Below, one piece after another: positions 5,821-27,557 of a DNA stretch of 38,990 nucleotides. Under the pieces are notes generated by a model. It searched no databases, was not told the origin of the DNA, and was given only the letters and a program-made list of their open reading frames with translations. How positions within the stretch are numbered: the first letter of the stretch is position 1; every line of letters starts with the position of its first letter. This DNA comes from a virus, in the IMG/VR virus record IMGVR_UViG_3300045257_000173, positions 1 through 38,990 of that record; one strand, given 5' to 3'. A program made the translations under genes and the position numbers.

Positions 5821-6314
5821 TGCGTCGCCTTGGCGATCGCAGCGCGGGCGGTACGGAATTTAAGATGGCGCAATGCCGCACATTCTTTGCATTGTCTGTA
5901 GCCCTCATTGGTGACATAAAGATTGTCTCCGCTTAATGGATGACCGCGCAAGCAATGCGTCTTTTCTTTATTCTTCCACGCCCCTGGGTCGCGTTTATTA
6001 TTTTCTTTGTGAGTAACAATCTCAAGATGGTCAGGATTACAGCAGGCTTTATTTTTACAAAGGTGGTCTAGTTCGAATCCAGCGTGGATAGGACCGTTCG
6101 CGTGTTCAAATAGAGCTTTATGAGATGGTGCATGTTTGCCGTTGATGCGTACGCTACCGTATCCCCTGTTTCCTGGATTTATCCACACCCAACATCCGGT
6201 GAGGCCGTCAGGCAGGTCTATGTTGGATGCAACTCGTAAAAGCAGAGGAATGGAGATAAAACCCTTTATGCCCTTGATTACATTCGCCGGTCTAGGCGTA
6301 CGCTGCGTGCTCAT
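5817..6314 (-). CDS. HNH endonuclease with C-terminal zinc ribbon, 165 aa
   Basis: This is an intact HNH_3-type endonuclease. CWVWINPGNRGYGSVRINGK is followed by SHKALFEHANGPIHAGFELD, HLCKNKACCNPDHLEIVTHK, then ENNKRDPG, the helix missing in the 4124-4777 paralogue. The C-terminus adds a zinc ribbon, HCLRGHPLSGDNLYVTNEGY then RQCKEC. It is free-standing in the early operon, overlaps the next gene as ATGA, and has an AGAAGGGGAG ribosome site. The sequence is AT-richer than its neighbours, consistent with lateral arrival. Confidence 0.88.
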   Translation of the reverse strand: MSTQRTPRPANVIKGIKGFISIPLLLRVASNIDLPDGLTGCWVWINPGNRGYGSVRINGKHAPSHKALFEHANGPIHAGFELDHLCKNKACCNPDHLEIVTHKENNKRDPGAWKNKEKTHCLRGHPLSGDNLYVTNEGYRQCKECAALRHLKFRTARAAIAKATQ

Positions 6315-9322: not shown

Positions 9323-10252
9323 ATGAGCGATTCGAGCGATTCACTTCCTGCGCCGCTTGTCCCGGCCGAGGTCGATTTACGGGATTTTCCGTACATGCCG
9401 TTGGACGTGGAACGGCTGATAAACTCCAATTTGGTCGCGCTGGCGACCGCCGAACAATTCAGAGCCGCGGTGCTGTTGTGGTGTCACGCATGGCACGCGA
9501 TACCCGCAGGATCGATTGACGTCAACGAAAAAGTGCTCGCTTTACATTCTGGCGCCGGCACCCGCTGGCGCTATGTACGTGACTACGCTTTACACGGCTT
9601 TATTCTGTGCTCTGACAACCGATATTACCATCCAGTAATCGCAGAAAAGGCAATAGAATCATTCAGAAAGCGAAAAAGCGCCAGCAAGAAGGCGAAAGCC
9701 GCCGCGAATGCACGCTGGATGCTTGAAGCAGTGCATAAGCAAAGCACAAGCAATGCTCCAAGCAATGCTCCAAGCAATGCACAAGCAATGCTTGGAAATG
9801 CTAAGGGAAGTGAAGGGAAGGGAATAGAAGGGAAGGGTTTACCGAGCACCGTACTTAATCAGCCGGAAAAGCCGAACCCGAAAAGCCGAAAAGCCGAACC
9901 CCTCCCCGAAGAGATTCCCAAACCCGAACCCCCGAAAACCGGATGGTGGCACACGGACTCAGGAATCCTTGCGACCGCCAAGACCCTCAACCTGCCGGCC
10001 GTGTCGGTCGAAACCATGCGCGATCTCAAAGAGCGTTGCTTCGCCGAGATCGAGCGCTTGAAAGCCGCGGGCGCAAACCCGCTTCCGGCCATCAAGGCGC
10101 CATCCTGCGCACACTGCGGTACACCGTTCGCCAACGGCGGATTCACATCGATGACCGGCGGAAACGTGTGTAATCCGTGCTACGCGGCGTACATGCGCTC
10201 CGAGTGGCAGCCAGCGCAACCAGATCAGCAACCGAGACCTCCAGCAGCCTGA
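9323..10252 (+). CDS. DUF1376 replication-type protein with C-terminal zinc finger, 309 aa
   Basis: Residues 17-125 match DUF1376 (VDLRDFPYMPLDVERLINSN, AAVLLWCHAWHAIPAGSID, GFILCSDNRYYHPVIAEKAI), a domain of phage replication-initiator-like proteins with a winged-helix fold. A low-complexity linker follows (SNAPSNAPSNAQ, then a Gly/Lys-rich part). A helical segment lies near residues 225-255, and a zinc finger CAHCGTPF...CNPCYAAYM near 265-290. The linker DNA contains iteron-like repeats, recalling lambda O, where the origin lies inside the initiator gene. The role as initiator or helicase-loading partner is inferred. Confidence 0.8.
   Translation: MSDSSDSLPAPLVPAEVDLRDFPYMPLDVERLINSNLVALATAEQFRAAVLLWCHAWHAIPAGSIDVNEKVLALHSGAGTRWRYVRDYALHGFILCSDNRYYHPVIAEKAIESFRKRKSASKKAKAAANARWMLEAVHKQSTSNAPSNAPSNAQAMLGNAKGSEGKGIEGKGLPSTVLNQPEKPNPKSRKAEPLPEEIPKPEPPKTGWWHTDSGILATAKTLNLPAVSVETMRDLKERCFAEIERLKAAGANPLPAIKAPSCAHCGTPFANGGFTSMTGGNVCNPCYAAYMRSEWQPAQPDQQPRPPAA
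9737..9837 (+). repeat. Iteron-like repeats and purine tract inside the replication gene
   Basis: Five tandem units of 11-12 bp with the core AAGCAATGC run from 9737 to 9795; the first unit reads AAGCAAAGC. Directly after them, 9796-9837 is nearly all purine on the plus strand (GGGAAGTGAAGGGAAGGG). Clustered iterons inside an initiator gene, next to an asymmetric tract, resemble lambdoid origins. The repeats also encode SNAP repeats, so a protein-level reason is possible. Confidence 0.55.
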
Positions 10253-10498
10253 TTCACCTGCTTATTATGATTGTGTATAGCCCGCTACATACAAGTGGCG
10301 ATTGAAAGCCAGTTCAGAGGCGACAGCCTTGAAGGCCGCTACTTATAGTCATCATCTTTGGCCCCCTGTCGAACTTTCGACGCCCCCTCCAGGCGACCGC
10401 TCGTGCTGCGGTGCGTCAAATGGCATATGGGGCATATTTGGGGGCAACTCGATGTTGTCACGACTTCAAACATGTTTTTTTTCAAAGAGTTAAGTCTG

Positions 10499-10529
10499 CA
10501 ATTCGATTGAGCAACCCTCAACCGAATTG
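10499..10529 (-). promoter_or_regulatory. 13-bp inverted repeat
   Basis: The arms CAATTCGATTGAG (10499-10511) and CTCAACCGAATTG (10517-10529) flank a 5-base loop. The single non-Watson-Crick position is A-C on the plus strand but G-U on the minus strand, so the hairpin is complete if read leftward. No T-run follows closely. It may be an operator or a weak terminator. Confidence 0.45.
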
Positions 10530-10739
10530 GAAAAAGGGCGATCGGGCTATCGGTCGACCTGGCCGGCCGCGTCGAGGTGCTGGCGGCTGGAGGGCGTCGA
10601 CGGCGAGGTCCAGGTCGATCGGGCGCCGGGCTGGCGGCTGGCCGGTCGGGCTGGCCGTCGAGCCGGCGGGGCACCTGGCCAGATGGGTCTGAGGGCGGCG
10701 TGGGAAGGTGCCATCCCTGCTCCGCTCCCCCAATTTTTC

Positions 10740-10767
10740 TTGACATTTTGCACAATTGTTTTACAGT
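10740..10767 (+). promoter_or_regulatory. Sigma70-like promoter for the middle/late unit
   Basis: A consensus -35 TTGACA (10740-10745), a 16-base spacer rich in A and T, and TACAGT (10762-10767) form a plausible promoter about 100 bases upstream of the zinc-finger gene at 10864. It lies in an AT-rich strip right after the GC-rich island. Confidence 0.6.
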
Positions 10768-11163: not shown

Positions 11164-11357
11164 GCAAATGGTGTCCATCCTGCGAGCGGGAGTTGAAGGA
11201 GGCGGCGTTCGGGCGGAACGAGAGCTTGAGCGACGGGTTGGCGGCGTATTGCCGGGGGTGCTACGCGAGGAAGATCAAGGAGTCGCGGCTGAGGACGGGT
11301 AAGGTGAAGCCGGGGCGTGGGGTAGGCAGACCGAGGAAGGGGTTAGGGGATGGATGA
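11160..11357 (+). CDS. Small zinc-ribbon protein with AT-hook-like tail, 65 aa
   Basis: GTG 11160 overlaps the previous stop. The product has WCPSCERELKEAAFGRNESL and AAYCRGCYARK, a zinc ribbon seen in small phage proteins and at the N-terminus of endonuclease VII-like enzymes. It then has a basic tail with GRGVGRPRKGLG, which resembles an AT-hook. It probably binds nucleic acid; the nuclease part of endonuclease VII is absent. It overlaps the next gene by 8 bp. Confidence 0.7.
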   Translation: MSKWCPSCERELKEAAFGRNESLSDGLAAYCRGCYARKIKESRLRTGKVKPGRGVGRPRKGLGDG

Positions 11358-11778
11358 GGAAAAGGTGAGGGGTAGTCTAGGGGTAGGCATGGCTTACCCT
11401 AGCAATGTCCTGGAGGGCTTCGGAACCGGAGCACTGCTCGACTTGAGGGTTCGGTTCGCGATGGACCTGCTCAAGTCGCCGCTGTTTTCGAACGTGGTGG
11501 CCGAGGGCGTGGAGTTTCGGGACGACATCACCACGGCTGGAGGGATTGCCGAACACGCGCTGGACATCGCTGTTGCGCTTCTGGCGCAGGCCGAGAACCG
11601 CGGCCTGGTCGAGTCCTTGCCTGACGACGACGGGTTGAACCGGCAGCTTCGCTTGCAGGCGGCGCGCACGGCGCGCTACTCGGTGTGGCAGCAGCTCGCC
11701 GGGGCGCGGGTGGCGGCGGAGGAGCAGCCGCGGGTGGGGCCGGTTGGTCCGCTTGCCGGCAGGACGTTCAACGGGTAG
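11350..11778 (+). CDS. Hypothetical protein, 142 aa
   Basis: The frame starts at ATG 11350 inside the end of the previous gene; ATG 11389 (MAYPSN) is an alternative. A helical core (ALLDLRVRFAMDLLKSPLFS, GIAEHALDIAVALLAQAENR) is followed by a basic, helical C-terminus. I do not recognise a family. It ends exactly where the large palindrome at 11778 begins and lies upstream of the resolvase, so a DNA-replication link is possible but unproven. Confidence 0.6.
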   Translation: MDEEKVRGSLGVGMAYPSNVLEGFGTGALLDLRVRFAMDLLKSPLFSNVVAEGVEFRDDITTAGGIAEHALDIAVALLAQAENRGLVESLPDDDGLNRQLRLQAARTARYSVWQQLAGARVAAEEQPRVGPVGPLAGRTFNG

Positions 11779-11853
11779 GTGGGGCATTTGACCCACTTCG
11801 GGCCTGGGTGGCAAATTGCCCCTGCCCTTTTCAGGTGGGTGAAATGCCCCACC
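11778..11853. repeat. 76-bp nested palindrome built of three motif copies
   Basis: The outer arms 11778-11798 and 11833-11853 are 21 bp with two mismatches. GGCAAATTGCC (11810-11820) sits at their exact centre. The same pattern, GGGGCA(A)TTTxxCC(A)CCC, is seen three times: once on the plus strand from 11781, and twice on the minus strand (about 11822-11806 and 11850-11835). This looks like a cluster of binding sites for an initiator or repressor. There is no T-run, so a terminator is unlikely. Confidence 0.65.
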
Positions 11854-11882
11854 TGTGGATAAGTCGGTTGCCCTGTGGATAA
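11854..11882 (-). other. Two perfect DnaA boxes (candidate replication origin)
   Basis: TTATCCACA, the consensus DnaA box, occurs on the minus strand at 11862-11854 and 11882-11874 in the same orientation, 20 bp apart. The first abuts the end of the nested palindrome. An A/T-richer stretch (CCTTTTGCATATTCC) follows. Iteron-like sites, DnaA boxes and an AT-rich element together resemble plasmid-type origins. Confidence 0.6.
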
Positions 11883-11961
11883 CCTTTTGCATATTCCCCG
11901 GTGGCTCACCACCCTCGAAGCGGCCGAACGGACGGTTCGGGGTTCGGCATAGAGGCTTGGC

Positions 11962-12489
11962 ATGATCGTTGCTATCGACCCTGGCACAACCGAGAGCGCG
12001 TTCGTTGCGCTGCATGACGGTGTTCCTGCCGAGCACGACAAGCTGCCGAACGATATATTGCTTCTGCGGGTGCGCAACGATTGGGACCCGATTCACCACT
12101 TGCTTGCGATCGAAGCGATAGCATCGTACGGTATGAGCGTTGGTAAGGAAGTGTTTGATACCTGCATGTGGATAGGACGCTTCCGCGAAGCGTGGGAGCG
12201 CCGCGGCGGGACAGTGCGGTTGATTTACCGACGCGAGGTCAAACTGTTCCTGTGCGAATCGAGCAAAGCGAGCGATTCGAACATCCGCGCTGCGATCATC
12301 GACAGGTACGGCGGGCAGGCTGCGGCAGTCGGTGTCAAGAAGTCACCGGGTCCGCTCTACGGCATCAAGGCGGATCGTTGGTCGGCTTTAGCGGTGGCGC
12401 TGACGGCGGAAGGCAGGCCAGCCGAGGCGCATGTCAGTCTCACTAAGACCGAGCTGGAAGAAATGGAATTACCGCAATTACCTTTTTGA
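11962..12489 (+). CDS. ruvC: RuvC-like Holliday junction resolvase
   Basis: This 175-residue protein of the RuvC-like family resolves branched DNA during replication, recombination or packaging. Catalytic acidic residues appear as AIDPGTTESA (Asp 6), LLAIEAIASYGM (Glu 51) and GIKADRWSALAVAL (Asp 138). Conserved family blocks EVFDTCMWIGRF, VKLFLCESSKASDSNIR and KKSPGPLYG are all present. The start is ATG 11962 with a modest GAGG site. It lies next to the candidate origin and upstream of the terminase. Confidence 0.88.
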   Translation: MIVAIDPGTTESAFVALHDGVPAEHDKLPNDILLLRVRNDWDPIHHLLAIEAIASYGMSVGKEVFDTCMWIGRFREAWERRGGTVRLIYRREVKLFLCESSKASDSNIRAAIIDRYGGQAAAVGVKKSPGPLYGIKADRWSALAVALTAEGRPAEAHVSLTKTELEEMELPQLPF

Positions 12490-15579: not shown

Positions 15580-16062
15580 ATGGTCGCAAAGGAATACCGC
15601 TGTCTCGCACACTCGCTGTCGTTCACATCGAACGACAAGCAGCCGCGTTGCCCGCACGGCTGCTCCACAATCGTCCGCGAGTTCCTGACCGCGCCCGCGC
15701 TGCGCTCAGAGCGCACGAAAATCTCCGACCGCGCGCTAGACCGCCTCGCCGCGCGCTACCAGCTCACCGACCTTTCCAATCGCAACGGATCGGTGGGGGC
15801 ATCCAGGAAGACCCCGAAGGGCATGGAAGCAATGTGGCAGCCGCTGCCGGCGGGGAATGTGTACGAAGTCGGCAAGGGTGAAGTGCCGCGCGAAGGCTCA
15901 GCGGGCGGCGCAACGGCCGCGCTCGCCGGCATGGGCATGACCGACACGGGCGGCGCAATCTCCGAACTGATGAAGGCGCTGCCGAGGCCGCGCCCGCACG
16001 CCGTGGGGCATGAGCCCGGTTCGGCCAAGGACTTCGATTCCGCACTGGCGAGCGCGCCGTGA
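15580..16062 (+). CDS. Protein with N-terminal zinc finger, 160 aa
   Basis: Residues 8-28 (CLAHSLSFTSNDKQPRCPHG, then C) form a probable zinc finger. Residues 44-70 are helical (KISDRALDRLAARYQLTDLS). The C-terminal half is Gly/Ala/Pro-rich and likely disordered. Proteins of this size lie between terminase and portal in other phages, but no function is known. It overlaps the portal start as GTGA, which implies coupled synthesis. No clear ribosome site precedes ATG 15580. Confidence 0.65.
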   Translation: MVAKEYRCLAHSLSFTSNDKQPRCPHGCSTIVREFLTAPALRSERTKISDRALDRLAARYQLTDLSNRNGSVGASRKTPKGMEAMWQPLPAGNVYEVGKGEVPREGSAGGATAALAGMGMTDTGGAISELMKALPRPRPHAVGHEPGSAKDFDSALASAP

Positions 16063-19282: not shown

Positions 19283-19474
19283 ATGCCCGAGCAACCAGGA
19301 ATAGGCGTCAGACCGAGCGGACGCGGCATCCGCGACCCGTTGACCAACGCGCAGAACAACGGGCGGGTGGTCAATCCGCCGCGATACCCGGTGTTCGGCG
19401 GGTTTTCGTCGGCGGGAAAGGCGTTCTTTCGGAACTTGATGCATATCGTCAAGCCCGGCAACGGCACTAAGTAG
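19283..19474 (+). CDS. Hypothetical protein, 63 aa
   Basis: ATG 19283 has the context CAGGAGAACATC-ATG, shared with other strongly initiated genes of this phage. The product is basic and glycine-rich (GIGVRPSGRGIRDPLTNAQN, FGGFSSAGKAFFRNLMHIVK). It is possibly a small virion component. No family is recognised. Confidence 0.6.
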   Translation: MPEQPGIGVRPSGRGIRDPLTNAQNNGRVVNPPRYPVFGGFSSAGKAFFRNLMHIVKPGNGTK

Positions 19475-19510
19475 GCCCTAAGTAGGTACTAAATAGGCAC
19501 CAAATAGGAG
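19467..19510 (+). repeat. Four tandem 10-12-bp units before a head gene
   Basis: The units CTAAGTAGGCC, CTAAGTAGGTA, CTAAATAGGCAC and CAAATAGGAG follow each other from 19467 to 19510. They contain repeated stop codons and weak Shine-Dalgarno cores (TAGG), and the last provides the TAGGAG ribosome site of the 19518 gene. They probably arose by slippage and may adjust translation. Confidence 0.6.
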
Positions 19511-26586: not shown

Positions 26587-27222
26587 ATGCCGGCACCCGT
26601 TACGATCACCACCTTTGCGAATCTCTCGGCGCCCTGGAGCCTCGTGCAACTGGATGCGAATTTCGCGGCGATTAAAGCGGGGATTGCCAGCACGAACACG
26701 TTCGGAAATTATCTGGTCGATACGGGCGCGGCCAACGTGTATGTCGTGAGCTTGCCAGTAGGCGTAACGGCGGTGCTTGCGGCGGGGCTTGCGATTCAGT
26801 TCCTCGCGGCGACGACCAATACCGGGGCCTCCACGCTCAACGCCTACGGAACAGGCACGGTTCCGATCACGAATTTCGACGGCAGCGCGATTGCCGCCGG
26901 CACGATTCGCGCGGGCGCGGTGGTGTCTGTGGTGTACGACGGAACGCAGTACAAATTGGTGGGGCAGGGTGCGAGCGGCGCGTCGTTCGTCTACGGCGAA
27001 GTCCCCGGCGGCGTGGTGAACGGCGTAGGTGCGACCGGGAACACGGTTTTTACGTGCGCCTTCACCCCTTCGCCCGCTGCAAGTCTTGTCGTCTACCATA
27101 AAAACGGGCCTCCATTTATGGGCTTCGGCGTGGATTTCACCCTGGTAGGCCAGACCTTCACGTTCAACGCCCCATCGACGCCTCAAGTCGGCGACTTGCT
27201 CCGCATCAACTACCAGCGATGA
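26587..27222 (+). CDS. Tail fibre/appendage-like protein, 211 aa
   Basis: The start ITTFANLSAPWSLVQLDANF is the usual N-terminal pattern of many phage fibre or appendage proteins. It is followed by LPVGVTAVLAAGLAIQFLAA, TNTGASTLNAYGTGTVPITN and VVYDGTQYKLVGQG, a beta-rich shaft-like domain. The C-terminal region ends in GFGVDFTLVGQTFTFNAP, a strand-rich tip. It probably attaches to the tail. It overlaps the next gene as ATGA. Confidence 0.75.
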   Translation: MPAPVTITTFANLSAPWSLVQLDANFAAIKAGIASTNTFGNYLVDTGAANVYVVSLPVGVTAVLAAGLAIQFLAATTNTGASTLNAYGTGTVPITNFDGSAIAAGTIRAGAVVSVVYDGTQYKLVGQGASGASFVYGEVPGGVVNGVGATGNTVFTCAFTPSPAASLVVYHKNGPPFMGFGVDFTLVGQTFTFNAPSTPQVGDLLRINYQR

Positions 27223-27557
27223 ATCTGTCGGCACTTCAAGATTTCGACATGCAGAACGCCGGGGCGCTGGTGCAGTTCTTGGACTTGAACGATTTGGCGC
27301 ACGAAACGATTTACGGCGCACTGATGGAACAATTGCAGGTGGTGAGCGCGCATTACCCACTGTTCACGACGGGCGGCATAACCGAGGACTGGCTGAATTT
27401 GCACGCCGAGGTTCACGCCTCGATTGCGACGGCGCTCGGGCTGCCTCTCCCGGTTGACCTTGACACGCTCGACGTGAAAGACAGCGCGCAGGCCGAGGAC
27501 TGGCAGCAGAATCACACGTTCGCGCATCAGAGAATAGAGCAGGCACTAGGACTTTAA
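27219..27557 (+). CDS. Hypothetical tail-region protein, 112 aa
   Basis: This is a mostly helical acidic protein (AGALVQFLDLNDLAHETIYG, VSAHYPLFTTGGITEDWLNL, HAEVHASIATALGLPLPVDL). It is coupled to the fibre-like gene upstream and precedes the ejection proteins. Small proteins of this type accompany tail genes in other phages, but its role is unknown. Confidence 0.6.
   Translation: MNLSALQDFDMQNAGALVQFLDLNDLAHETIYGALMEQLQVVSAHYPLFTTGGITEDWLNLHAEVHASIATALGLPLPVDLDTLDVKDSAQAEDWQQNHTFAHQRIEQALGL

Follow-up and report, generated by a model that had tools for sequence, protein, structure and literature searches.

DnaA-assisted iteron origins are known from plasmids of the P1 oriR, pSC101 and R6K type. 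The closest described phage system is the replication region of bacteriophage lambda, in which replication starts where the O protein binds four 19-bp iterons and in which footprints of DnaA cover two boxes downstream of pO (PMC3985674). Work cited in that paper links DnaA with the transcriptional activation of the lambda origin.

We analysed a 38,990-base IMG/VR virus record (the window), in which a first-pass annotation had placed a plasmid-like iteron origin at 11778–11900. This locus resembles the plasmid origins in having perfect DnaA boxes beside repeats of the protein-binding type, but the repeats are inverted dyads in one to three copies, and both an adjacent initiator gene and a conserved AT-rich region are absent. 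It resembles lambda in having two boxes in a replication region whose probable origin is formed by iterons inside an O-like gene. Unlike the lambda boxes, which lie beside promoters, those of the window show no recognisable promoter nearby; they lie ~2 kb away from the iterons and adjoin a dyad of variable copy number and an invariant 33-bp block. The comparison with lambda is one of analogy. We propose, with a probability of roughly 0.45, that the locus is a compact DnaA-binding cis-regulatory or accessory site and not the main origin of the phage.

Two invariant DnaA boxes

Two perfect DnaA boxes (TTATCCACA) lie on the minus strand at 11854–11862 and 11874–11882, 20 bp apart in one orientation, as first annotated. 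The number of perfect boxes expected in the window is 0.10 under a first-order model, and that of same-strand pairs 9–40 bp apart is 3.9e-6, so the pair is indeed unlikely to have arisen by chance. A third perfect box lies on the plus strand at 6179, inside an HNH endonuclease gene.

The locus recurs in three related IMG/VR contigs, G001 (L003; 41,174 bases), G002 (L006; 51,268 bases) and G003 (L012; 30,019 bases), and the conservation comparisons rest on these and the window, four genomes in all. Both boxes are unchanged throughout (9/9 columns each, 18/18 together), compared with 5/11 columns in the spacer, 5/13 in the strip that follows and 59% at third codon positions of the upstream gene. 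The genomes hold two to three perfect boxes each, and in G001 and G002 the pair described here accounts for all of them. The two boxes are 20, 20, 20 and 31 bp apart in the four genomes; the 31-bp spacing, in G002, reflects a single 11-bp insertion, a change of about one helical turn that keeps the boxes in phase. These comparisons of sequence support the conclusion that the boxes are real and selected.

In the fetched phage contigs, perfect boxes on the same strand tend to be spaced by multiples of 10.5 bp (28 distinct distances, R 0.62, Rayleigh p 2e-5). This figure should be taken as indicative, since the contigs had been chosen for a single box-containing pattern, the window family is among them and duplicates were removed by similarity only. 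The box clusters in these contigs lie outside long open reading frames. In contig L107 a G-rich/C-rich inverted repeat and then DnaA-like boxes directly follow an O-like gene, and in L004 a perfect box directly follows the replication genes. We rejected box clusters as general markers of origins, as replication genes are not clearly over-represented among their neighbours, which include terminases, an integrase, modification genes and unknowns. A PHROG 3842 protein adjoins the clusters in three contigs (L021, L031 and L076).

A palindrome of variable dyads and an invariant block flank the boxes

The 76-bp palindrome of the first-pass annotation (11778–11853) is present, with 20-nt arms (11777–11796 and 11835–11854) that are 95% complementary, and it abuts box 1 at 11854. 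Of its three GGGGCA(A)TTT copies one is forward and two are inverted, one of these being degenerate. They belong to an 18-bp dyad at 11779–11796 (GTGGGGCATTTGACCCAC), a degenerate middle copy at 11806–11822 (GGGTGGCAAATTGCCCC) found in the window genome only, and a second 18-bp dyad at 11835–11852 (GTGGGTGAAATGCCCCAC), which is the copy common to all four genomes. G001 and G003 each have one copy of the dyad GTGGGKCAWWTSMCCCAC, G002 has two, and the window has two in addition to the degenerate copy; no further close copies were found elsewhere in the four genomes. As single-stranded DNA, 11776–11856 folds with an energy of -27.7 kcal/mol (z -5.7 relative to shuffles). No tandem array of direct repeats was found at 11778–11900, the inverted dyads standing in its place. 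In a search with the exact junction CCCACCTGTGGATAA, 78 stretches were retrieved, of which only those in the relatives described here are preceded by the palindrome. Dyad matches in phages L007 and L009, from the first pattern scan, are without boxes and were taken as chance.

The AT-rich strip said to follow the boxes exists as a short AT-richer strip (11883–11895), but it is weak and not conserved: the best 30-mer reaches 57% AT, a value equalled or exceeded by 9.5% of all 30-mers in the window, and the strip is not preserved in the 51-kb relative.

The conserved cassette extends beyond the first-pass description to a 33-bp block with a GGTGG-CTCA-CCACC dyad (11896–11928), invariant at 33/33 columns in the four genomes. 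In IMG/VR the exact core of this block is otherwise present only in the three relatives, and the single match of a 25-base core among bacterial and archaeal genomes, in a Halolamina contig, was read as chance. We rejected the block as a small coding sequence: its frame is open in all four aligned sequences, yet 33 of its 33 bases are invariant although four codons next to it have changed, a pattern that points to constraint at the level of the DNA.

The cassette is non-coding; in each of the four genomes it runs from the stop codon that closes a 142-aa gene (11350–11778, plus strand) to a resolvase gene. The 142-aa protein is 71–79% identical in the three relatives and matched nothing in PHROG or Pfam. 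With this orphan on one side and a RuvC-like resolvase on the other, no initiator gene adjoins the cassette. The 142-aa protein and an 86-aa protein are the two conserved candidates for dyad binding; their structure models (pLDDT 45 and 40, respectively) were too poor to use. Searches of the cassette DNA against phage and plasmid collections gave no real match, and an Rfam search returned nothing.

The cassette stays in place while neighbouring genes change

The replication genes beside the cassette differ in type. The window carries a DUF1376 O-like gene and G001 and G002 carry AAA_25 helicase genes, while the O-like gene of G003 shares its C-terminal part with that of the window and differs in its N-terminal domain. 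The downstream RuvC-type protein of G003 also differs from that of the window, and relatives of the window RuvC occur in L004 and L005 without the cassette. Because the cassette is constant while both neighbours change, it is not linked to any one initiator or to the resolvase.

Three observations on the relatives stand apart from this comparison. When the O-like gene of G003 (L096, 6298–7176) is set against that of the window, the N-terminal domains are unrelated, the internal repeats differ and the C-terminal part is shared, as if initiator domain and origin had been exchanged jointly, as a single unit; a perfect DnaA box lies within the G003 gene as well. On the reverse strand of G002, at about 27188–27250, TGCGCACAAAC repeats lie directly 3' of the AAA_25 helicase gene and are a possible origin of that module. 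At each end of the G002 record (L093–L095, 51,268 bases) ~9.8 kb matches one and the same part of the window, so the record probably exceeds one genome in length or mixes strains.

A candidate origin inside the O-like gene

The O-like gene (9323–10252, plus strand) matches PF07120 (DUF1376; E 9e-10) and phrog_22470, annotated as 'replication protein' (E 6e-36). Within it, about six copies of an 11–12-bp repeat (AAGCAATGCAC/TCC) form an array at 9726–9792, and a purine-rich (AAGGG)n tract follows just 3' of the array, on the plus strand at 9803–9837. The region thus combines what is expected of a lambda-O-type origin: an O-like gene in a phage replication region, iterons within the gene and a purine/AT-rich tract. 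It departs from lambda in the length of its units, 11–12 bp as against four 19-bp repeats, and in the DUF1376 N-terminal domain of its protein. The repeat runs on through a change of reading frame, so that what is repeated is the DNA and not the protein. The array scores 79, and of 13 long genes of the window used as controls none scores above 54.

Relatives of the gene show a similar arrangement in several cases. The same repeat is kept in L107 (86% identity in this region), other in-gene repeats are found at a similar position in L110, L114, L117 and Pseudomonas phage phi297, and the purine tract is also found in L107, L108, L110, L111, L114 and L117. By this method no array was detected in L112, L115, phage Magia or phage Alize. 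The phi297 relative lies between CII-like and DnaB-like helicase genes, a placement that matches that of lambda O. A perfect DnaA box is missing from the loci of most relatives of the O-like gene. On these sequence features, 9726–9837, ~2 kb upstream of the cassette, is a better candidate for the replication origin than the cassette.

Two other elements of the window were recorded. A long non-coding stretch after the replication gene (10360–10750) is conserved in all four genomes and consists of an invariant TGTCGAACTTTCGAC dyad, then CCCCCTCCAGGCGA, then ~190 strongly G-rich bases at ~91% column identity; RNA covariation gave no support within its conserved part at 10533–10722 (covariation term +0.94). 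A set of four 11-bp tandem repeats (GGCACTAAGTA) at 19463–19508, among the structural genes, is identical in G003 (15769–15814).

Alternative explanations for the cassette

What stands of the plasmid-like iteron origin is the DnaA boxes, perfect and selected. The remainder is not supported, since the dyads are not iterons, no initiator gene or conserved AT-rich region accompanies them, the cassette keeps its place while replication genes change type, and a better candidate lies at 9726–9837. The reading of 11778–11900 as such an origin is weakly supported.

A related possibility is a stand-alone or second origin, at which DnaA on the boxes and a factor bound to the dyads would open nearby DNA and load helicase independently of the swappable replication genes. 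The constancy of the cassette amid changing replication genes and the strict conservation of the boxes fit this proposal, as does the position of the cassette within strong positive GC skew (+0.25 at 10.5–12 kb). The cumulative skew, on the other hand, has its minima at window-equivalent ~7–10.5 kb, and GC skew was set aside as an origin test because it is confounded by gene direction, genes left of ~7 kb being mostly leftward and the rest rightward. With two boxes only, no iterons and no conserved unwinding region, we consider a stand-alone or second origin unlikely, if still a serious contender.

Alternatively, the palindrome may form a hairpin in the mRNA where the 142-aa gene ends and act in stability or termination, the DnaA boxes being a separate feature beside it. 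In each of the four genomes the palindrome begins at the stop codon, and the RNA of 11770–11975 has a stable fold (z -3.2), but a terminator scan listed nothing at the palindrome, no T run follows it, and the stem is short in G001 and G003, which have a single dyad copy. A hairpin would also leave the conservation of the boxes unexplained, and we judge it quite improbable.

The boxes might instead be decoys that titrate host DnaA, a role for which their perfect match to the consensus would suit them; two to three perfect sites per genome are few for this purpose, however, and the dyads and the invariant 33-bp block would go unaccounted for, which makes a decoy highly improbable. Least probable of all is a pac or cos site for the nearby terminase, given that none of the four contigs ends at the cassette and that the resolvase and other genes separate it from the terminase. 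In its favour, the large terminase gene lies 1.6 kb downstream, and box clusters also occur near terminase genes in L028, L060 and L074. DnaA boxes are, to our knowledge, not a known packaging signal.

A proposed DnaA-binding accessory site

The reading that we prefer, a compact DnaA-binding regulatory or accessory site, draws on the 18/18 invariant columns of the boxes against a less conserved spacer and strip, and on the absence of any other perfect box from the 41- and 51-kb relatives. It draws further on the 20/20/20/31-bp spacing together with the helical phasing of box pairs in other phage contigs, on the persistence of the cassette while replication genes and the downstream RuvC differ, and on the better origin candidate in the O-like gene, with repeats or purine tracts in several of its relatives. 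The boxes that follow replication genes in L107 and L004 and the DnaA footprint in lambda (PMC3985674) point the same way. Counting against it, a simple scan for sigma-70-like sites found no promoter at the cassette (11.8 kb), so that it has no clear transcription target.

We infer that host DnaA would occupy the two boxes on the same face of the helix and that a dimeric protein, of phage or host, would bind the 18-bp dyads beside them. With the 33-bp block included, a nucleoprotein complex would assemble where the replication genes give way to the resolvase-terminase (late) genes. Its likeliest role, by analogy with the lambda origin boxes, would be to let host DnaA tune transcription, or origin activity from afar, with replication itself presumably starting at the iterons inside the O-like gene (9726–9837). 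It is a speculative and rather unlikely further proposal that the cassette is a modular control element through which host DnaA, acting with a dimeric regulator on the one-to-three-copy dyad, couples the replication state of the host to the switch from replication to resolvase and packaging functions, whichever replication module is present.

If DnaA acts at the cassette, this lineage would sense the host initiator through a site that is kept while its replication genes are swapped. To judge from the helical phasing in other phage contigs, DnaA-box clusters of phages may be functional in general. The window also offers a clear candidate for a lambda-type origin within a DUF1376 gene, and the origins of other phages with such genes could then be predicted from sequence.
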